From Nitrospira sp. (lineage in GTDB: Bacteria > Nitrospirota > Nitrospiria > Nitrospirales > Nitrospiraceae), in contig JACOEL010000016.1 of the NCBI GenBank assembly GCA_024998625.1, positions 1 through 64,000 of the forward strand: 64,000 nucleotides of DNA, written 5' to 3'. Position numbers and translations under genes: made by a program. Positions 9,431-36,033 of this stretch are shown one piece after another; positions within the stretch are counted from its first letter, which is position 1; each line of letters begins with the position of its first letter. Under the pieces are notes generated by a model. It was not told the origin of the DNA. It did not search any database and saw only the letters and a list, made by a program, of their open reading frames with translations.

Positions 9431-11004
9431 CCGTATCTCCTCCCGTCGAATTTCATGCCAGGCACGCCGATCGACCTCCGGTTGCGAGGCGCGAAGATGC
9501 TGCCCCCGCCGCTCCCATCGAGCGGAGCGATGTCCCCGGCTTTTTCCATGAGGAACCATTCAATATTCATAAAGTCTTCACCCAAACCTCGCGATTGCGA
9601 GATGGACGTGCTTAACGAAGCGACAGTGGTGTTGGATAGTCCCATGCGAGTAATAAATTCATCCGACATGCCGGACGGCGAGAGGATATCTGACGAACCA
9701 GTCGCGAGCGTGCAGAACGCATTCCCTCCATGCGTTTGTGCGTAGAGGTGCCCTGTTTCGTCGATGGGGTTGGAATACCCTGTAAAATTCGTATAGGCCG
9801 CAACATTGACTGCGTCGTTATCGTCCCGATTCGGGCGCGTGCAGCCCACCTTGGACAGCAGATCCGTCGCAAAGGCATCGGCTGAAGCCTGCGATGCAAT
9901 GCTAGTCACCGTCACGGGGATGATAGGGCTGTTGAGTTTGCTGCCAACAAGGGTCAGCGACCCGCCGCCCTGCACTTGCGTTCTGGCGGCTGTGAATCCA
10001 TACGGAGAAGGAAGCAGAGCTTTGTTGTCTGACAGATACAGATTGCCTGGCGCATACCCATGCACGATTTCCTTGCCCCACTGCGGGTCATCCCACCCGG
10101 CCAGATTGCCAAAGCCAGATGCCGGCCCCCACTTGAAGTAGTTCGAGATCACATCGTAGTTGGGTATAGGTGAGGTCGTGAAGACATTGAAGAACTCAGC
10201 GCCCAAACCCTGGAAGCCTCCCCAGTTGTAGTTCAGGTTATTGATGCTCTCGCCGTTAGAGTCTGAAAAGAGCGGAGTCCGCTGGAGGCAGGAGACAAAA
10301 TAGTTATGGTGATACGAGAGATACTTCCCGCCTGCGTGGTGATCAGACAACACGGCATGGCCGTCGCTAATCGTATCGGCGATGATGCTCCACTGAAACG
10401 TGACATAATCCGCCGCGTTCGCGTTCGCGTCATCCGTCGCGTAACTCAAGGAACAGTGATCGATGATGTAGTTCCCTAGCGAGCCCAGCCCCCAGAACGA
10501 GATGTTCCAGTTGTTCGTGCCGTCAGCCTTGGTGCCACGGTTACGTATATACCGCACGCAGGTTTGCCCTTGTCGCAGATAGAGAGCGCCATTGTTGGTT
10601 CCTGCCGATTGGCCCTTGAATGTGATGCCGTCTCCTGGCGCGCTCTGCCCTGCCACATAACAGTACCCAGCGCCTGCAGCTGCATTGCTCAGCTCCGTCA
10701 CGACCGGGATATATCCGGCAACCTGGAACAGAATAATGCGCGGCCCAGTCGTGTTCTGGTATGCCTGCCTGAAACTTCCCGGGCCCGAATCGTTCAAGTT
10801 TGTCACAAGAAGAATCTGACAGCTCGGATCGCGCCAGCCTTTGGTCTGCGCTCCATACCCTTCGGCCCCGATGAAGGCTCGCGAGGTATAGGCTTGCGCG
10901 TAGGCGCTCTTGCGCGAGGTCCAAATCCAGGGTGCGGCCGTCAACAGTCCGGCGCCTGCCATGCCCAGCACGAATTGGCGACGGGTGAGTGAGCGCCGCA
11001 TCAT
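9424..11004 (-). CDS. Tat-exported pectate-lyase-like (PL1-type) beta-helix protein
   Basis: 526 residues. The N-terminus contains the twin-arginine motif SLTRRQFVLGMAGAGLLTAA and an AxA site (SAYAQA) near residue 38. The mature part is a right-handed beta-helix of the pectate lyase superfamily: GAEGYGAQTKGWRD, LLVTNLNDSGPGSFRQA, DHCSLSYATDDANANAADYV, YHHNYFVSCLQRTPLF. These segments match PL1-type family signatures, including the DHCS(L/F) and HHN(Y/L)...R-x-P blocks. Such domains in phages are usually tail-spike depolymerases that digest capsule. A Tat leader is very unusual for a virion part; it may instead be an enzyme released by the lysogen. Catalytic residues were not assigned. Confidence 0.8.
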   Translation of the reverse strand: MMRRSLTRRQFVLGMAGAGLLTAAPWIWTSRKSAYAQAYTSRAFIGAEGYGAQTKGWRDPSCQILLVTNLNDSGPGSFRQAYQNTTGPRIILFQVAGYIPVVTELSNAAAGAGYCYVAGQSAPGDGITFKGQSAGTNNGALYLRQGQTCVRYIRNRGTKADGTNNWNISFWGLGSLGNYIIDHCSLSYATDDANANAADYVTFQWSIIADTISDGHAVLSDHHAGGKYLSYHHNYFVSCLQRTPLFSDSNGESINNLNYNWGGFQGLGAEFFNVFTTSPIPNYDVISNYFKWGPASGFGNLAGWDDPQWGKEIVHGYAPGNLYLSDNKALLPSPYGFTAARTQVQGGGSLTLVGSKLNSPIIPVTVTSIASQASADAFATDLLSKVGCTRPNRDDNDAVNVAAYTNFTGYSNPIDETGHLYAQTHGGNAFCTLATGSSDILSPSGMSDEFITRMGLSNTTVASLSTSISQSRGLGEDFMNIEWFLMEKAGDIAPLDGSGGGSIFAPRNRRSIGVPGMKFDGRRYGW

Positions 11005-11690
11005 CGTAACCTCCGTGGGTGGGTGAGCAGGTCGCCGCCGTCGCTGGCCTGGCGATCCTGATCGACGAAGCCGCCGGCGGGCGGCGCGTCCGATTGTTGG
11101 TCGAGCCCGAGATGTTTCCGGTACCGGGCTTTCAATTTGTCGGCGATCTCCAAATAGGTGCGGCTCTTGTCGCCATAGTTCACGCTGTCGGCCGTAATGG
11201 TCGCACTTTGCGTATTGGCATAGACGGCCGCCAGATCCGTGAGACCGATCGAGGCGGCGAGGTCGGCGACCGCTTCTTCGTCGAGCGCGCTCACAGTCGA
11301 TTGCGTCGCGTCGATGGTGTGCAGCTTCGTGAACACGATGCGCAGGGATTTGCCGGTTTCCGGCGTGAGCAGGATCAGCCGGATTTTCTTCCCGCTCGGT
11401 GCGACATAGAACTGCCAGGCCTCGGATTCCAAAAACGCCGGCAGGCGCTCGCCCGCCGGATATTCCACCTGTGCGATCGACGAGATGCCCTCTTGCCAGC
11501 CGGTCGGCAGGGCGAAGTCGAACGTGCTGCTGTCGCCGGGATAATCCTGTGCGGCCATCACCGGGCGGACCTGCGAATACTCTTTCAACGCCTGTTGAAT
11601 GGCCCGCTCTTTTTGCTGCGACGTGAACGGCGCGCCGGTCGCCCGCACGCGGTCATCGAAGAGGGTTTGAAATGTGGTTAAGGTGCTCAT
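11001..11690 (-). CDS. Probable head-tail connector (adaptor) protein
   Basis: 229 residues. The helical N-terminus (TLFDDRVRATGAPFTSQQKE followed by RAIQQALKEYSQVRP) and a central beta insertion (FDFALPTGWQEGISSIAQVE) are typical of phage adaptor/connector proteins placed between the capsid and tail completion genes. The C-terminal helix (YLEIADKLKARYRKHLGL) is followed by a disordered tail. It overlaps the lyase-like gene by four bases. No signal peptide. Function assigned from position and architecture. Confidence 0.55.
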   Translation of the reverse strand: MSTLTTFQTLFDDRVRATGAPFTSQQKERAIQQALKEYSQVRPVMAAQDYPGDSSTFDFALPTGWQEGISSIAQVEYPAGERLPAFLESEAWQFYVAPSGKKIRLILLTPETGKSLRIVFTKLHTIDATQSTVSALDEEAVADLAASIGLTDLAAVYANTQSATITADSVNYGDKSRTYLEIADKLKARYRKHLGLDQQSDAPPAGGFVDQDRQASDGGDLLTHPRRLR

Positions 11691-11733
11691 GTAAAGATGT
11701 TCTTATCCTCTTTGCATCGGCGTTCACTGAGAG

Positions 11734-11755
11734 CCGCGAGCCCGCGCTCGCGGCC
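11734..11755. other. Perfect 9-bp GC-rich hairpin between two late genes
   Basis: GCCGCGAGC and GCTCGCGGC flank a 4-base loop in the 85-bp gap between the 11776 and 11001 genes. No T-run follows on either strand, so it is not a standard intrinsic terminator. It could affect mRNA stability. Confidence 0.5.
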
Positions 11756-11775
11756 TACAGTCAAGGCCTCGCTGA

Positions 11776-12255
11776 TTACAGGCGCTTAAAAATCAGGATC
11801 ACCGTGGCGTCGTCTTGCGTGGGCGACGTGCCGGTGGCGGCGTAGTCCAGCGTCAGGCTGGCTTCGTCGGCGACGAGGGCGTCGCTGATCGTGCCTTCGA
11901 CTTCGGTGGCGGCCGTGGTCGGCGCGCACGTGGCCACGGTGCCGGCGGCCTCTTGCAGCGTCCAGGTGTAGGTCGGCGAGCCGGTGCCTCCGAAGGCGCG
12001 GCCGGAACATTTCATCGCGATCAGCCGCGCGGGCCAGGGGGCTTTCCATTGGGCTTTGTCGGCGACCGTGGCCGTCAATTGCGAATCGAAATGGAACGTC
12101 ATCATGTAGATGCCGGTCGCCCCTTGTGCCGGATTGTCCGTCGCACCCTGTACCGGCGCCGCGAAATAGCCAGGCGCGCCCAGCATCGCCGCCAGGGCGC
12201 AGACAATGGCCAGCACAACGGCTGCGCCCTGAAATGTGTTCTGAAATAGTTTCAT
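11776..12255 (-). CDS. Exported small protein, possible capsid decoration protein
   Basis: 159 residues. MKLFQNTFQGAAVVLAIVCA and LAAMLGAPGYFAAPVQGA form a long signal peptide. The mature part (IYMMTFHFDSQLTATVADKA, PARLIAMKCSGRAFGGTGSP, TYTWTLQEAAGTVATCAPTT, SQLTLDYAATGTSPTQDD-like C-terminus) is beta-rich and contains two cysteines. It lies directly after the capsid gene in transcription order, where tailed phages often encode head decoration proteins. As with its neighbours, the leader is not expected for such a role. Ribosome site GGAGGCACTC upstream. Confidence 0.7.
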   Translation of the reverse strand: MKLFQNTFQGAAVVLAIVCALAAMLGAPGYFAAPVQGATDNPAQGATGIYMMTFHFDSQLTATVADKAQWKAPWPARLIAMKCSGRAFGGTGSPTYTWTLQEAAGTVATCAPTTAATEVEGTISDALVADEASLTLDYAATGTSPTQDDATVILIFKRL

Positions 12256-12345
12256 GAGTGCCTCCCTGGTTCGTCGTTCGTCGTTCGTGAAGCGTCGCTC
12301 GCAGGACCGGCAGGCTCGACTCGGAGCCCGCCGGTCGCCGCACCG

Positions 12346-14571
12346 TTACACCACGCTCTTGTCCATCATGCGGAAGTCGGCAATCTCGCCGCCGTAGATG
12401 TGGCGGGTCTTGTATTGCAGCTTGTCGGCCATGAACATCTGGCCGACCTGCTGGTTGTCCGCCAGGAACAGTTCCGGCGATTCCTGCCCGTTCAAGAAGC
12501 CGACCTCGATCATTTCACCGTCGGTCGGCTGCCGGAGCAGGTACCAGTCGCTCGTGTCGGTGAAGAGGGGGTTGACGAGGATCCGCTCGGGGTTGTCAGG
12601 ATTGCCGAACAGGCCCGCGATCGGGTTGTCGCCCTGGTTGGCCGCGCCGGGAATGCCGCGCGATTGATTGAGCTGCTTCGCGATCGCCTGCAGCGCGGTC
12701 GGCACCGCGAGTTGCGGCCGCGCGTTCCACCAGGCGCCGCCGAGCCTTTCGGAGGTGCCCGGCTCGGTCTGGTTCATCAGCGCGTTCAGCCGGTTGACCA
12801 CCGCCGTGACCCCCGTCGCATCGGCAGTCAACGCCGTCGCGCCCAGGTTACCGTGCGAGGCGTGGAACAGGGCCACGCTGTCTCCGTCGTAGGTGGCGTT
12901 GCTCATCAGGAAATTCCAGACGAACCGCGCGAAGGTGCGGCGGGCCGCGCGGCCTTCGTTGCGCACCATGCGCTGCACGGCGGAGAGGTCATCGTTCATG
13001 ATGGTTTCCATCGTGATGGTGATGATCCGCCCGCGCTTGCTCACCTTGTAGTTCGCGCCTTCTTCGCCGATGGTCGCGAGTTCCGTATAGTCGGTGTCCT
13101 CGTTCACGCTCGGGAGGTCGGGCGAGTAGTTGATGCGATTGATTTCGACGGACCGGAAATCGATCACGCGGCGGCGGTTCGAAATGATCCGGCTTTCCAT
13201 GTAATCGACCTCGGCATATTCCTGGCTCAAGCGCCGGTAGAGCGTATTGGCCATCGCGAGCGGCCAGCTCGACGAGAGCTGCGCCTGCATGGCCCAGGTG
13301 GCATAGCCGGGCTTCGCCTGGCCGAACTCGTCGATGCTCTCGGCCTGGTAGGCGCGGGCGGCCTGCACCATGCGCTGGAGATATTCCTGCGCGTAGCTGG
13401 ATCGCTGGCCCGTCACGCCCTTGTCGCCGGTGATGTGCTCATAGGCCTGCCGGATGCCGACGAAGGCGGGCGCGTCGCTCTTGACGTCCTTCACGCCCAG
13501 CATCTTGTCGAGCGAGGCTTGGGTCCGCTCGAAGCTGCCTTCGACCGCCACCTCGCGTGCGAAGCCCAGGCCGGACACTTTGCCTGACTGCGAAATCGCA
13601 TCGATCTTTTCCCGCTCCGCCTTGATGGCCTGCTGGACCTGTTCGAGCTTGCCGGGTTGATCCATGAACCGGGCGCGCAAATCTTTGAGACAGGCTTCGG
13701 GCAGCTTGCTCTCGTCGAGCGCCTGGCGGACATCCCACTGCCACAATCTGAGATCGACCTGGCGGGCCTGGGCATCGTCGACCTGGCGGGCCGCCGCCTG
13801 CTTCTCTTCCGCGGGCTTGTTCTCTTCCTGCGGTTTCGGCTCCTCGGCCTGTTTCGCCGTGGCCTGCGCGAGGAGGGCGGCGAGCTTCTCGTCCGACACG
13901 GCCTCCAGATCCACACCCGTGAGCAGATCCGGCCGATTGGCCTGCAGGATCTGGATGATTTGCTTCTTGTCCATGCGCTCCTCCTCTGGTTGGTGACTCG
14001 TTGCGACGGCGTTCAACGCGCGTTGAAAGCCTCCTTTGGTGCCGGGATTCCAGACCACGTCCACCGTGGCCGGCTGCCGGATGCTGAGAAACTCCTGCAC
14101 GCTGATTTTCTCGCCGCCTTGCTGAATGGTCGTCGCGCGCGCCTCGCCGGGCGCATCGATCGAGAGGCCGAAGAGATCCGGCCGTTCATGGTGCGAGGCC
14201 ATGAGGCTCTGCCGGAGCCAGTCGCCGGTCGGGAGCAGGTTCAGCCGGCCGACCAGGCCCTTGCCGTCCTCGTAGCGCGTCTGGTCGATGTAGCCCACGA
14301 TCTGCTTTGCGGATTTGTCCCGCTTGCTCGCGTGCTGCTCGTCGTCGAGGCAGAAGACCCGGGCGCCCTCGAACACGGAGACGGCCTGCCGCAAGGTGGA
14401 TTCGGGGAAATACTGCCGGCCCGCGCCGAGCCCCGGCTTGATGATGAGCACCTCCCACTTCCAGCCCTGCTCATCCCCGGCGACGCGCTGCAACACCCGC
14501 ACGTCGCCGACCGAGACATGGAATTGCCCTTGCTCGGCCTGTCTCGCTCTCGCTTGATGACTCATGCTCAT
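12346..14571 (-). CDS. Fused prohead protease - scaffold - major capsid protein
   Basis: 741 residues. Residues 1-185 form a phage prohead-protease domain, with candidate active-site His in LDDEQHASKRDK and Ser in DLFGLSIDAPGE. Residues 200-330 are highly charged, Gln/Glu/Lys-rich and helical, as expected of a scaffold segment. Residues 380-741 are an HK97-fold major capsid protein of the type found in transposable phages (RRTFARFVWNFLMSNATYDG, DSVALFHASHGNLGATALTA, FLNGQESPELFLADNQQVGQ). The enzyme would cut itself free during head maturation. Mu uses separate I, Z and T proteins, so this fusion is distinctive. A start at 14565 fits the GGAG site slightly better. Confidence 0.85.
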   Translation of the reverse strand: MSMSHQARARQAEQGQFHVSVGDVRVLQRVAGDEQGWKWEVLIIKPGLGAGRQYFPESTLRQAVSVFEGARVFCLDDEQHASKRDKSAKQIVGYIDQTRYEDGKGLVGRLNLLPTGDWLRQSLMASHHERPDLFGLSIDAPGEARATTIQQGGEKISVQEFLSIRQPATVDVVWNPGTKGGFQRALNAVATSHQPEEERMDKKQIIQILQANRPDLLTGVDLEAVSDEKLAALLAQATAKQAEEPKPQEENKPAEEKQAAARQVDDAQARQVDLRLWQWDVRQALDESKLPEACLKDLRARFMDQPGKLEQVQQAIKAEREKIDAISQSGKVSGLGFAREVAVEGSFERTQASLDKMLGVKDVKSDAPAFVGIRQAYEHITGDKGVTGQRSSYAQEYLQRMVQAARAYQAESIDEFGQAKPGYATWAMQAQLSSSWPLAMANTLYRRLSQEYAEVDYMESRIISNRRRVIDFRSVEINRINYSPDLPSVNEDTDYTELATIGEEGANYKVSKRGRIITITMETIMNDDLSAVQRMVRNEGRAARRTFARFVWNFLMSNATYDGDSVALFHASHGNLGATALTADATGVTAVVNRLNALMNQTEPGTSERLGGAWWNARPQLAVPTALQAIAKQLNQSRGIPGAANQGDNPIAGLFGNPDNPERILVNPLFTDTSDWYLLRQPTDGEMIEVGFLNGQESPELFLADNQQVGQMFMADKLQYKTRHIYGGEIADFRMMDKSVV

Positions 14572-22714: not shown

Positions 22715-23074
22715 TCATGGCTCCAATGGCTGCACCGCGCCGGACGACTCCAGTTTCACCAGAGACCACCCGCCATCTCCAACCGGGTAGCGCTCCCTGA
22801 TCACAAATTGCCCCTGCACGGATCGCCGCTCCATCACGTCTGCCAACACTGCACATGCCGGGAAGGGAGCCACCTCGAAGTTCCAGCGCGCGACAAAGGG
22901 AGCCACCTCGAAGTTCCAGCGCGCGACAAGCGACACAGACGACCCCACCATCCAGCGCGCCCACTCATCCGCCGGCACCGCTATCTGCAGATCCAGGGCC
23001 GCACGTCCACGATCGTACTCAACCCCGATGCTCTCCACCATCGCCCGACTGTCCTCGCCATTCATCCGCACCAT
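22715..23074 (-). CDS. Small protein with an internal 11-residue duplication
   Basis: 119 residues with no known domain. The central part reads VARWNFEVAPF twice in tandem because of a perfect 33-bp direct duplication. The frame is kept. It is the last gene before the 22.6-kb hairpin, a position where Mu encodes the middle activator Mor, but no helix-turn-helix is evident. Function unknown. Confidence 0.55.
   Translation of the reverse strand: MVRMNGEDSRAMVESIGVEYDRGRAALDLQIAVPADEWARWMVGSSVSLVARWNFEVAPFVARWNFEVAPFPACAVLADVMERRSVQGQFVIRERYPVGDGGWSLVKLESSGAVQPLEP
22863..22928 (-). repeat. Perfect tandem duplication, 2 x 33 bp
   Basis: The 33-bp unit starting at 22863 is repeated exactly at 22896 and ends at 22928. 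The identity of both copies indicates a recent event. It adds 11 residues in frame to the 22715 gene. Confidence 0.95.
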
Positions 23075-33182: not shown

Positions 33183-33512
33183 ATGCGGATCGGCCTGCTG
33201 CTGCTCGTCTCGTGGTTCTGTGTCTCTCCACTCGCGCTCTCCGCCGCTGACCAGCCGACCATTCTCACCGAGTCGGCCAGCGGCACGCGGAGCCTCAAGC
33301 CATTCACTGTCGGTGATCGCTGGGAACTCCAGTGGGATTCCAGCGAGGGCCTCATTATCTGGCTCATGACGGCCAAAGGGGAGGCCGTCCAACAATTGGC
33401 CGCCCAACACAAGCCTGGCAAGGGGAGCACGTTCCACCCGACAGGCGGCTCCTATTATTTACGGATCACGTCGTCGGGTGACTGGACGGTGCGGGTCGTG
33501 CAGCTGCCGTGA
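33183..33512 (+). CDS. Secreted 109-residue protein of the lysogenic operon
   Basis: MRIGLLLLVSWFCVSPLALS with AADQ is a Sec signal peptide. The mature domain (KPFTVGDRWELQWDSSEGLI, GKGSTFHPTGGSYYLRITSS, DWTVRVVQLP) is a small beta-sandwich. Its last four bases, GTGA, overlap the GTG start of the nuclease gene, so the two are made together. It might be a partner or inhibitor of the nuclease, or modify the surface. Not recognised. Confidence 0.65.
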   Translation: MRIGLLLLVSWFCVSPLALSAADQPTILTESASGTRSLKPFTVGDRWELQWDSSEGLIIWLMTAKGEAVQQLAAQHKPGKGSTFHPTGGSYYLRITSSGDWTVRVVQLP

Positions 33513-34003
33513 ACTCCCACCTATTATATAGCTGCCTCCTGATCCTGCTCCCGACGGCCGCCTGCGTCGCTCATCCGCTCCATACCTCGCCACTCCATCT
33601 GGCCCGGGAATCGCCGTTCATTGCCGTCACGGTGCACGATTGTTATGATGGCGACACCTGCACCGTGACCCTCTCTGATGGCTCGTTGCCCGCCGTGCTG
33701 GGGGAGCATCTGCCGGTCCGGCTCGCCGGGATCGATACGCCCGAGCGCCACAGCCATTGCGCCGCCGAGCGGGAGCTCGCCCACGCTGCGAGAAATTTCC
33801 TGCGAGAGCGCCTGGCCCGCGCGACTAGAATTGACCTCATCGCCCCGCAACGTGACAAATATTTCCGCCTCCTGGCGACATTGCGAGCCGACGGCCAGGA
33901 CCTCAATGCCGCCCTCCTCACTGCAGGCCTAGCCAAACCATACGCCGGCGGGACCAAATCTCCCTGGTGCCGGGCGGTGATCGCGCCCCCCACACCAGAA
34001 TAG
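33509..34003 (+). CDS. Secreted staphylococcal-nuclease-like (TNase) protein
   Basis: 164 residues, GTG start at 33509. An N-terminal hydrophobic leader (LLYSCLLILLPTAACVAHP) may be a signal or a lipobox (TAAC). The SNase core has HDCYDGDTCTVTL, VRLAGIDTPERH (catalytic Arg and the calcium-binding Asp), and ALLTAGLAKPYAG, matching thermonuclease motifs. It would degrade DNA or RNA outside the cytoplasm. Carried in the repressor operon, it should be expressed during lysogeny and could destroy incoming or extracellular DNA. Typical length for the family. Confidence 0.85.
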   Translation: MNSHLLYSCLLILLPTAACVAHPLHTSPLHLARESPFIAVTVHDCYDGDTCTVTLSDGSLPAVLGEHLPVRLAGIDTPERHSHCAAERELAHAARNFLRERLARATRIDLIAPQRDKYFRLLATLRADGQDLNAALLTAGLAKPYAGGTKSPWCRAVIAPPTPE

Positions 34004-34041: not shown

Positions 34042-34071
34042 TTGACATCGCTACGCCACGTAGCATATACT
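34042..34071 (+). promoter_or_regulatory. Strong sigma-70-type promoter with operator between boxes
   Basis: TTGACA (34042-34047) and TATACT (34066-34071) are separated by 18 bp. The spacer holds a perfect inverted repeat GCTACG-CCA-CGTAGC (34050-34064), a likely repressor site. Transcription would start near 34078 and run into the five small genes that follow. Confidence 0.75.
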
Positions 34072-34152
34072 CCCATCATGATGATTGCGCGACAGAGCCA
34101 GCCCAGCGAGCCCGACGGGGCGGCTCTCCACATTTCGGGTGAGGAGCTGAAC

Positions 34153-34443
34153 ATGCGACATGAGATGAGCTACAGTGATGGCAGAGTGTGGGGCGTCCTG
34201 ACCACTGAGCGGGCTGAGTCGAGCCGTAATATCCCGGTGCTCGTGGTGGCAGACGTAGCCTACGGGCCTGCTGATAGTGTGGCAGGGCTCCCTAATGCGG
34301 ATGTGTTTGGCGCGACCACAGCCGCGAGCCTGGTCGCAAACTGGGGCAGCGGCTCGAGGACCAATGATGAGCGGACGGCGGCGGATCGGTTTTGCAGGCA
34401 ATGGATTGACGGCCCGCAGGTATCGGGCGCGATCTATCGATGA
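34153..34443 (+). CDS. Small protein of the L-end operon, unknown
   Basis: 96 residues from the ATG at 34153, chosen for GAGGAG nine bases upstream; an in-frame ATG at 34078 would lie at the transcription start. MSYSDGRVWGVLTTERAESS, NIPVLVVADVAYGPADSVAG has no known domain. First gene of the operon. Confidence 0.5.
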   Translation: MRHEMSYSDGRVWGVLTTERAESSRNIPVLVVADVAYGPADSVAGLPNADVFGATTAASLVANWGSGSRTNDERTAADRFCRQWIDGPQVSGAIYR

Positions 34444-34448
34444 CCCAT

Positions 34449-34481
34449 CCCCTCCCTCTGCGAGCCCGATAGAGGGAGGGG
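34449..34481. other. Perfect 11-bp hairpin between two small genes
   Basis: CCCCTCCCTCT and AGAGGGAGGGG flank an 11-base loop. There is no T-run after it. It lies 26 bases before the next start and may protect or process the mRNA. Confidence 0.55.
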
Positions 34482-34506
34482 CCACCACTCGGGCGAGGAG
34501 AGACAG

Positions 34507-34761
34507 ATGACTATCTATGTGAGCCGGGGATACCCTGACGGTCTGATCCGAGTCCGGGAGATCAACCCAGATCGAGATCATCCAGATAGCTTCTGCTGGC
34601 CAGCGGAGGCAGAGCCTTTTGCCGCCCTCTGCGAGGGGGCTCATGAGATAAGCCGTGAGGTGTTTTTGGCCGCCAGGGATGCCGCGCAAGCCTCGCAGAC
34701 CGCCGCGAGGCGTCAACGAGTAGCGTCCTCCCGCGCATCCTACTCGCGTCATCAGCGATGA
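34507..34761 (+). CDS. Small protein of the L-end operon, unknown
   Basis: 84 residues with a good ribosome site (GAGGAGAG). MTIYVSRGYPDGLIRVREIN, CWPAEAEPFAALCEGAHEIS, then a helical Ala/Arg-rich tail. No known domain. Confidence 0.5.
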   Translation: MTIYVSRGYPDGLIRVREINPDRDHPDSFCWPAEAEPFAALCEGAHEISREVFLAARDAAQASQTAARRQRVASSRASYSRHQR

Positions 34762-34791
34762 TTCTGTACCGATCCACGGAGGGTAAATACT

Positions 34792-35055
34792 ATGGAAACA
34801 ATGCGCAAGAAGCCCCATATCTGCTGTACATGTCACCGAGAGCTAGATCCGAGCAGTGACGCCGTAGTGTACCTAGGGTGGGGTGATCGTCATGACGGTC
34901 ACCCGGGAGTTGGGTGGGTGGCCGCGCTCTGTGCACCCACCCCCGCACAGGTGGCTGGTGGCGGCAGCCCTTGCGTGCAATCGGCGCGGGACTGGGCCGA
35001 TCAGGAAAATATTGATCTCGTACCATCCGACTATGAGGCATGGTGCGGCGAGTGA
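34792..35055 (+). CDS. Small Cys-rich protein of the L-end operon
   Basis: 87 residues, GGAGGG upstream. HICCTCHRELDPSSDAVVYL and further Cys residues (ALCAPTP, SPCVQ, EAWCGE) suggest zinc binding. It overlaps the next gene by 16 bases. Function unknown. Confidence 0.5.
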   Translation: METMRKKPHICCTCHRELDPSSDAVVYLGWGDRHDGHPGVGWVAALCAPTPAQVAGGGSPCVQSARDWADQENIDLVPSDYEAWCGE

Positions 35056-35210
35056 CCCCCCTCTCCACCGAGTATGCGATCCGGGAGGCCGTGACACTCT
35101 TGCGGCTCTCCCGGCGCAATTTCCGGTCCCGGCAGGTGGCCCAGGCCGCCGAACTGCCGGAGCGCTCCCGGATACCTATCGAGGCCACGGCCCGCGTCGA
35201 GGAGCCATGA
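35040..35210 (+). CDS. Short basic protein, 56 residues
   Basis: The frame from the ATG at 35040 (GTG at 35043 or 35052 also possible) reads TPLSTEYAIREAVTLLRLSR then NFRSRQVAQAAELPERSRIP. It ends in ATGA, overlapping the start of the XRE gene. Size and basic helix recall phage excisionase or small DNA-binding proteins, without a firm match. Confidence 0.5.
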   Translation: MVRRVTPLSTEYAIREAVTLLRLSRRNFRSRQVAQAAELPERSRIPIEATARVEEP

Positions 35211-35380
35211 CCCCCACCGATCTCAAAACGCTCCGTTCCGCCCTCGGCCTCTCCCAGCAGGCCCTCGCCGATCGGCTCGGCGTGACCCGCAACACCGTCA
35301 CCCGCTGGGAGATGGGCCTGCACCCAATTCCGCCTCTCGCGGCAAATTTCCTCGCGACCATCCGCACGCCGAAAAAGTAG
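35207..35380 (+). CDS. Small XRE-family helix-turn-helix regulator
   Basis: 57 residues (GAGGAGCC upstream). TPTDLKTLRSALGLSQQALA, DRLGVTRNTVTRWEMGLHPI is a complete XRE helix-turn-helix. As last gene of the operon it could bind the palindrome in the promoter at 34050-34064 and repress its own operon. It lies directly before the transposase-binding end. Confidence 0.75.
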   Translation: MTPTDLKTLRSALGLSQQALADRLGVTRNTVTRWEMGLHPIPPLAANFLATIRTPKK

Positions 35381-35429: not shown

Positions 35430-35818
35430 CGTCCAAAACTGTGAGACTTGGATTTTCTTATCCACAGGCCAATTTTCATTTTCTCAATCACGTGATAAAC
35501 CGCTCCTGACGCGGCGTTGAAGGGGATTTGAAGGGCTCAGAAACGGCGTGAGAATTGGATGAGACTTGGATTTTGGATCGCGCCCGTAATTCACAGGCTC
35601 GAAAATGGCAATTTCGTGAGGATTCAACAGCACTTAGATGGAAAACCTTCAACCTGGTGATTCTCAAACTACTTGGAGGTTTGCCACGCTTTTTCCCGCC
35701 CCATTCTCAAACTAGATGAAGGTTCCCGCCGACGCAGACCCCCGAAAGCTCTGCACTACCGCAGCATTTCGCATTTTCCCGATTTTTCCAGGATTCTCAA
35801 TCTCCGTGAAGAATTACA
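35430..35818. repeat. Prophage left end with transposase-binding repeats
   Basis: Motif TGAGA(A/C)T occurs six times: three on the minus strand at 35793-35800, 35703-35710 and 35660-35667, and three on the plus strand near 35440, 35548 and 35560. The first three lie about 19, 109 and 152 bp from the proposed end, close to Mu L1, L2 and L3 as I recall them. The end itself (35818) reads TGTAATTCTTCACGGAG inward, similar to the Mu left end. No gene is seen from 35381 to 36033. Confidence 0.75.
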
Positions 35819-36033
35819 CTCGCGCCTGTCGGAGTTGATTCTGGAGGATAGCCTGGTAGAGGAAAGGAGTATGCGCCTCCCCGATGGCCGACGGCGACAT
35901 TTGCATTTTGCAGGCGTCCCGCAGAAGATGGACGCGTCGACGCGAAAATCAGCGCCGGGTGGCGCCGATGAAGTTGTGTAAACTATTGAGTGCCAAGCAT
36001 GGTCTGTTTGTCCTATTCGTCGGAGGTGGTGAG

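Follow-up and report, generated by a model that had tools for sequence, protein, structure and literature searches.

A putative XRE-regulated counter-defence cassette of Nitrospira phages, with circularly permuted type I-G CRISPR-repeat units in sibling operons

The five-gene operon at 34042-35380 of the window, i.e. of the whole 64,000-nt stretch of Nitrospira DNA analysed here, belongs to a family of operons which on balance is probably a mobile counter-defence cassette that Nitrospira phages carry and that represses its own expression; the likeliest kind is an anti-CRISPR locus of acr-aca-like design. For the window copy this role would follow from the family, the architecture and the host context, not from its own cargo. 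Three sibling operons also contain a unit that appears to be a rearranged type I-G CRISPR repeat, and a more specific proposal, put forward tentatively as somewhat short of an even chance, is that phages possess a circularly permuted type I-G crRNA gene which in Nitrospira has been wired into an XRE-autoregulated anti-CRISPR operon with pseudoknot-Shine-Dalgarno cargo. The inner half-repeats would pair, and the resulting helix would serve both as the Csb2 site that yields the 5' handle and as a 3' cap; with one helix in both roles, a single self-contained crRNA, acting as decoy or as guide, could be made without an array.

The operon lies in a Mu-like prophage which occupies 12-35 kb and encodes MuA- and MuB-like proteins, a CII-like protein and a repressor, a head protease and a portal. 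The right boundary is at 35818/35819, homology to the prophage-free genomes G023 and G015 running from 35819-35821, and this boundary and the gene content together bear out the placement of the operon between the repressor arm and the prophage end in the first-pass annotation. A gene for a signal-peptide-like SNase-domain protein (33509-34003, + strand; Pfam SNase, 1.7e-11) lies on the lysogeny side of the prophage, in the interval that separates the repressor from the operon, and a 33-bp perfect tandem duplication is present in the prophage at 22863-22929.

The same annotation had described a promoter enclosing a perfect palindrome and five short genes, of which the last encodes an XRE protein, and when coordinates and frames were re-derived the description proved exact; that the five genes form one operon ending in the XRE gene is likewise supported. 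The features are all on the + strand. The sigma-70 type promoter at 34042-34071 was read from the sequence, has equivalents in 7/7 readable promoters of the family and, by a script check of coordinates, consists of a -35 box TTGACA (34042-34047), an 18-bp spacer and a -10 box TATACT (34066-34071). Between the boxes, at 34050-34064, is a perfect 6+3+6 dyad (GCTACG, 34050-34055; CCA; CGTAGC, 34059-34064), confirmed in the same way and presumed to be the XRE site. A leader frame beginning ATGATGATT (34078-34152) opens 6 nt past the -10 box in frame with gene 1, and is a possible leaderless start from which an N-extended gene 1 product could be made. Cargo gene 1 (34153-34443, 96 aa, in frame from 34078), gene 2 (34507-34761, 84 aa) and gene 3 (34792-35055, 87 aa, cysteine-rich with CCTC...C...C) belong to no known family. 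ORF4 (35040-35210), delimited by family alignment, encodes a helical protein of 56 aa (AIREAV..LSRRNFRSRQV) and is an internally shortened copy of a core gene that is paired with the XRE gene; its position was recovered by a search with relatives at E 7e-16. The XRE regulator itself (35207-35380, 57 aa; HTH_31 2.8e-10, HTH_3 7.6e-10) is presumed to be an Aca-like autorepressor.

None of genes 1-4 could be assigned with confidence to a family of Pfam, PHROGs, NCBIfam or PADLOC, in agreement with the earlier view that the four non-regulator genes fall outside known families, and in the same databases gene 5 is an HTH_3/HTH_31 protein. The XRE protein matches many HTH families alike, the match to PF08965 (Aca2_YdiL) having an E value of 0.0066 and 17.1 bits against a cut-off of 23.8, and it is at most a candidate member of the Aca families. 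No relative of gene 1 was found in IMG/VR, nor any of the leader region or gene 2 among phage GenBank records, and a search of IMG/VR with ORF4 returned two loci only, both already known. AlphaFold without alignment produced a model of gene 1 at pLDDT 40, which is not usable, and one of gene 2 at pLDDT 75 with no PDB match at E<=0.001.

A survey of related prophages, proposed in the first-pass annotation, yielded nine related loci, eight of them in phages or prophages and one on a short contig. A DNA search revealed a second copy in the window's own genome (G000:C9), with the same promoter architecture and leader and other cargo, in which the 3' part consists of a shortened ORF4 followed by the XRE gene; neither this copy, nor the RNA elements and CRISPR-repeat-derived unit described below, had been noted in the first-pass annotation. 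Further loci come from the genomes G031 (L007/L042), G154 (L008/L043), G028 (L040) and G099 (L041) and from viral contigs (L045, L047/L048, L190), L047 and L048 being identical in promoter, leader and element sequences and counted once. The XRE gene was found in 8/9 loci, always last and downstream of the cargo (it was not found in L040), and its products of 53-75 aa can be aligned across loci. ORF4 is seen in 7/9 loci, being missing from L048 and L040, with L042 judged by eye and the C9 copy heavily shortened. What varies from locus to locus is the upstream cargo, which has been swapped; the constant parts are the promoter architecture, the RNA elements, ORF4 and XRE. To the eye the window locus, L041 and L045 have similar Mu-end-like sequence downstream, C9 is in an integrase-type prophage beside a lysis/tail region (the integrase again judged by eye) and L042 adjoins a putative small-terminase gene (also by eye). 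Because the setting differs between loci the cassette is not bound to one place, and the earlier tie to the prophage end is not supported. A remnant ORF4-XRE pair with a broken XRE gene lies outside any recognisable operon at L286:1480-1733 (G050), which suggests decay of the cassette in the chromosome. The helical motif of ORF4 (AIREAVEVMERTRSSFKSKEIGALRQRLE) also occurs at the end of response regulators in the genus (L287:814-1620 in G013, and similar loci), hinting that ORF4 may be a borrowed interaction module. The first RNA-element pattern scan of genome contigs gave, among the matches listed, mostly chance GC-rich ones; only L084 and L133, on the same contigs as the G028 and G099 loci, were kept on the basis of stem and context, and L009, L010, L044, L046 and L049 were dropped as chance matches.

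A dyad of 6-7 bp is present between the -35 and -10 boxes in 7/7 loci with a readable promoter, all seven promoters being distinct, against a frequency of 0.55% for dyads of at least 6 bp in random 18-nt spacers. The arms and loops are GCTACG-CCA, CTCTACG-CCG, GTTGCC-GCT, TGTTGCG-TGA, TGATACG-CCG, GGGGCC-AAT and CTATGCG-CCG, each followed by the mirror arm, and over the seven loci the arms pair at 6.57/7 positions within a locus and at 3.74 if arms of different loci are combined. Both arms change together, as expected if the operator is co-evolving with the XRE repressor. The XRE proteins of L041 and L042 have GWSQNRLAQ in common and both loci have a TGTTGC-type operator. This covariation supports autorepression through the dyad, in which XRE would bind the operator and repress, and the retention of a dyad in 7/7 promoters while its sequence changes makes the suggestion in the first-pass annotation that the XRE protein binds the palindrome very likely to be correct.

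In front of most cargo genes, and of the XRE gene too in L048, there is a hairpin that has CCCGA in its loop and, beyond its 3' side, TCGGGNGAGGAG, which is the Shine-Dalgarno sequence; the first gene of L041 is an exception without a hairpin element. Sixteen elements were found, four of them in tandem in L040. The two in the window, at 34094-34146 (+; stem 34094-34104/34116-34127) and 34449-34500 (+; stem 34449-34460/34470-34481), both end in the Shine-Dalgarno sequence GAGGAG, and in each the loop GCCCGA (34110-34115 and 34464-34469) can pair with the bases next to it (TCGGGT, 34135-34140, and TCGGGC, 34489-34494). The P1 stems differ yet stay paired, with duplex energies of -18.4 kcal/mol for own arms as against -7.5 kcal/mol between arm classes, a control that covers 14/16 elements since C9_1 and L045_1 have the stem arms of W_1. 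The pairing of loop and Shine-Dalgarno region is likely to form a pseudoknot, the pairs of which are mostly invariant; since CCCGA and TCGGG were built into the later search patterns, the core pairs are mostly uninformative, and the informative set consists of the six elements known before that pattern plus the sixth pair, which over the 16 elements is G-C in 13, G-U in one, U-A in one and a G-G mismatch in one. A search of Rfam gave no match to the leader elements, two unrelated sub-gathering-score matches being returned in L007. An ATG start, ATGATGAT, is found 6 nt past the -10 box in 7/7 promoters, and in 7/8 loci the leader frame runs without a stop into the frame of gene 1 despite varying leader length, whilst in L043 it stops at a TGA overlapping the gene start; the in-frame leader suggests an additional leaderless, N-extended product. 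The leader peptide MMI..QSQPSEPDGAALHISGEE was rejected as a conserved protein because in other loci the DNA diverges with pairing kept, and on the same grounds leader-peptide conservation would mostly reflect RNA structure, by which the in-frame leader (7/8) is left unexplained.

In the genome of the window (G000) the type I-G locus is complete (Cas3g, Cas8g/Csx17, Cas7g, Csb2, Cas4g/Cas1g and Cas2) and is accompanied by an array of 27 copies of the repeat GCTTCAATGGGGCCACGGCATCTGAGCCGTGGAATC, and Cas1 is present in 20/29 genomes of the genus. Within this locus, between cas4g/cas1g and csb2, is a gene with a match to the NCBIfam anti-phage protein ProA (2128.8 bits, cut-off 1500; L213:11710-17001, - strand). 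Comparison of the 26 spacers with nine phage and prophage loci gave nine alignments with <=9 mismatches: four are to L043, three are to the C9 prophage and differ from it at 1-2 positions, and the remaining two, to the window prophage, have 5 and 8 mismatches. At 6/9 there is a TTN PAM, the PAM reported for type I-G (PMC9638904). In a BLAST control using 288 spacers from many arrays the best E value was 6e-12 with the real targets and 0.002 with reversed ones. In the two G000 prophages the matches have 1-8 mismatches, several of them near the PAM (positions 2-7), which look to be of the escape type, and mutation may have allowed both prophages to escape. I-G pressure therefore acts on these phages, but the genome alone does not demand an inhibitor. 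Host spacers also match L043, a phage of G154, at 10388-12966, and since this phage is from another genome the two hosts probably share related phages.

Upstream of ORF4 in 3/9 loci (C9, L043 and L190) is the sequence GCTYCAATGGGGCCGCG, part of a crRNA-like unit encoded on the opposite strand to the operon; no such unit was found in the window copy. The 14-mer GCTTCAATGGGGCC occurs in 23/175 family genomes, almost always as arrays, and stands alone in C9 and L043 (with one mismatch in L190); of the few other solitary occurrences, that in G138 is a piece of an array edge and the one in G078 is unexplained. A half-repeat end (GCGCGGAAA) is found 40 nt upstream of GCTYCAATGGGGCCGCG, and between the outer arms there is perfect pairing of 10-11 bp. 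In the crRNA sense, for which the cas genes, the PAM side and the ATTGAAGC handle give the orientation, the order within the unit is arm-CGCGG-CCCC-ATTGAAGC-36 nt-ATTT-CCGCG-arm', with CTTT for ATTT in C9 and ATTGGAGC as the handle in L190. Csb2 is reported to cut the native I-G repeat 4 nt 3' of the hairpin, which gives an 8-nt handle (PMC9638904). Judged by its sequence the unit is a circular permutation of this repeat, in which the helix base, the Csb2 cut site and the 8-nt handle are kept and the connectivity is changed. In each of the three operons the arm is preceded, at a distance of 5-6 nt, by the end of a crRNA-sense promoter (TTGCAT-17/18-TATTAT, TATACT or CATAAT); these promoters are homologous and so not independent.

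Two scans of IMG/VR and the three operons together provided 68 distinct sites with enough flank, of which 13 are permuted, 20 array-like, 12 followed by a normal downstream hairpin and 23 of other kinds. Ten further permuted units, with different covarying stems, are thus known from viral contigs. Over 14 units the outer helix has a mean of 6.1 bp with own arms and 0.66 bp with exchanged arms (n=182), this control covering 14/16 units with L245 and L258 omitted and the phage group represented by L246 and L251. The native hairpin is reduced in the 13 permuted units to <=4 bp downstream and <=5 bp upstream. The crRNA-sense promoter score reaches p<=0.07 in 5/13 units (the three from Nitrospira, L267 and L270) as against 0/13 on the opposite strand. 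The derivation from a repeat, the stem covariation and the crRNA-sense promoter are results of sequence comparison, from which we infer that the unit may be expressed, bind and inhibit. Four contigs (L245, L246, L251 and L258) and related ones in IMG/VR have the same I-G-like flanks and a different spacer or guide, and the guide of L251 resembles a coding stretch for a Walker B ATPase. At L279:3567-3680 the guide of a permuted unit nearly duplicates (30/36) the neighbouring sequence in which a putative tail gene ends; this partial self-match was rejected as a guide target, being a neighbouring duplication without a TTN PAM. No convincing guide target was found in the sequences searched, and 14 guides had no seed and PAM match within the searched stretch of their own contigs. 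The guide regions of C9, L043 and L190 are self-folding. The part of the literature searched contained no description of circularly permuted crRNAs, CRISPR repeats or half-repeat units in this arrangement.

In the proposed cycle of the anti-CRISPR cassette the strong promoter would fire upon infection, perhaps giving a near-leaderless mRNA, and small cargo proteins would be translated from it, mostly from hairpin/pseudoknot elements ending in a Shine-Dalgarno sequence, until XRE, the last product, bound the dyad between -35 and -10 and shut the promoter. Cargo would be exchanged among phages with promoter architecture, RNA elements, ORF4 and XRE retained. Sibling operons would in addition produce a crRNA-like RNA from the permuted type I-G repeat unit, which should engage Csb2/Cascade since the helix base, the cleavage site between CCCC and ATTGAAGC and the 36-nt guide length are kept; the window copy, having no such unit, would rely on its proteins. 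This reading is favoured by the presence in one genome of two cassettes that differ in cargo, the seven distinct covarying operators, the complete host I-G system with spacers matching its own prophages and the permuted units in siblings. Against it, the cargo genes show no resemblance to known Acrs or to any other family, the XRE protein matches many HTH families equally, the unit is missing from the window and present in 3/9 loci, and self-targeting is imperfect. The earlier suggestion of a role for the lysogen, defence included, is refined, counter-defence (anti-CRISPR) being likelier than defence of the lysogen.

It is possible, at a probability well below one half, that the permuted units are not inhibitors but true guide RNAs, mini-array-like or CreA-like, which direct the host I-G Cascade at rival phages or use it to control genes. 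The handle and Csb2 site are intact, L246, L251 and L258 have like flanks and different guides, that of L251 being Walker B-like, and there are published precedents in phage mini-arrays directed against relatives (PMC11656645) and in CreA, which directs Cascade to repress CreT (PMC9458426); set against these are the lack of a convincing target for any guide in the sequences searched and the self-folding of the guide region in L043, L190 and C9. Rather unlikely, but deserving of some weight, is a self-regulated early cassette of mixed small genes for host takeover or other counter-defence (against restriction, BREX, ProA and similar systems) with no specific link to CRISPR, in which the repeat-derived unit of three siblings would be one cargo among many. 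The highly variable cargo, unrelated to known Acrs, the window copy without a CRISPR-derived unit and the anti-phage ProA gene of the host would all accord with this, but the unit is at the same place, upstream of ORF4-XRE, in three siblings and the host array targets both prophages.

Two other explanations have little probability. The prophage-end position and a weak similarity of XRE to antitoxin regulators of the MqsA, HipB and NadS types would suit a toxin-antitoxin system or defence moron serving the lysogen, with XRE as antitoxin or regulator, but no cargo matches a toxin family, genes 1-4 have no PADLOC match, and the swapping of cargo while XRE stays is the reverse of a co-inherited pair. 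It is similarly improbable that the hairpin elements are mainly DNA recombination sites for integron-like cassette exchange and not RNA regulators. There is one element per small gene, with four in tandem in L040, and cargo is swapped between loci; the stems, however, diverge with pairing kept (-18.4 against -7.5 kcal/mol), so that structure is favoured over sequence homology, and every element ends in a Shine-Dalgarno sequence beside a start codon.

To our knowledge Nitrospira phages have hardly been studied, and no anti-CRISPRs against type I-G were found in the literature searched. The family supplies a concrete list of small candidate cargo genes, and more may be found through the dyad promoter, the Shine-Dalgarno element and XRE. 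The mechanism of the permuted RNA is open to direct study with the type I-G effector, which has already been reconstituted, and should the RNA be processed it would offer a one-helix design for crRNA production.

The cassette resembles the acr-aca operons (Aca1-10), which have small variable genes, an HTH gene last and the Aca inverted repeat within the core promoter (PMC9410906), in that an HTH gene lies downstream in one operon (8/9 loci) and there is an inverted repeat in the core promoter (7/7). It differs from them in having no known Acr among its cargo, genes 1-4 showing no family match to a known or proven anti-CRISPR gene, in an XRE protein that is at most a candidate Aca, in the hairpin/pseudoknot translation elements before the cargo and in the permuted crRNA-like unit of some members. 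The sibling units are like Racr, which is encoded beside acr, and other solitary repeat units in being phage mimics of a CRISPR repeat with their own promoter beside counter-defence genes (PMC10651486), and in C9, L043 and L190 the unit derives from a repeat of the host's subtype (G000 being I-G). The published solitary units are single repeats, those with other partial repeats having been set aside in that report, whereas the sibling units are of type I-G and consist of two paired half-repeats flanking about 36 nt. The repeat-like, spacer-like, repeat-like order of the permuted units recalls psiR-psiS-psiR of CreA/CreTA (PMC9458426), but they have only the inner repeat halves, share one stem and are phage-borne; no toxin RNA was found with them, and within the searched contig stretches no seed and PAM match of the 14 guides pointed to the partial complementarity to a toxin-RNA promoter that marks CreTA. 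The full repeats that flank the spacer of a mini-CRISPR array are absent from the 13 permuted units. Finally, the Shine-Dalgarno elements are like the SAS/ESAS of cluster K mycobacteriophages, a repeated Shine-Dalgarno element with an inverted repeat just upstream that accompanies small non-structural genes (PMC3203893), from which they differ in sequence, in a loop that can pair with the bases adjacent to the Shine-Dalgarno sequence as a putative pseudoknot and in stems that covary.
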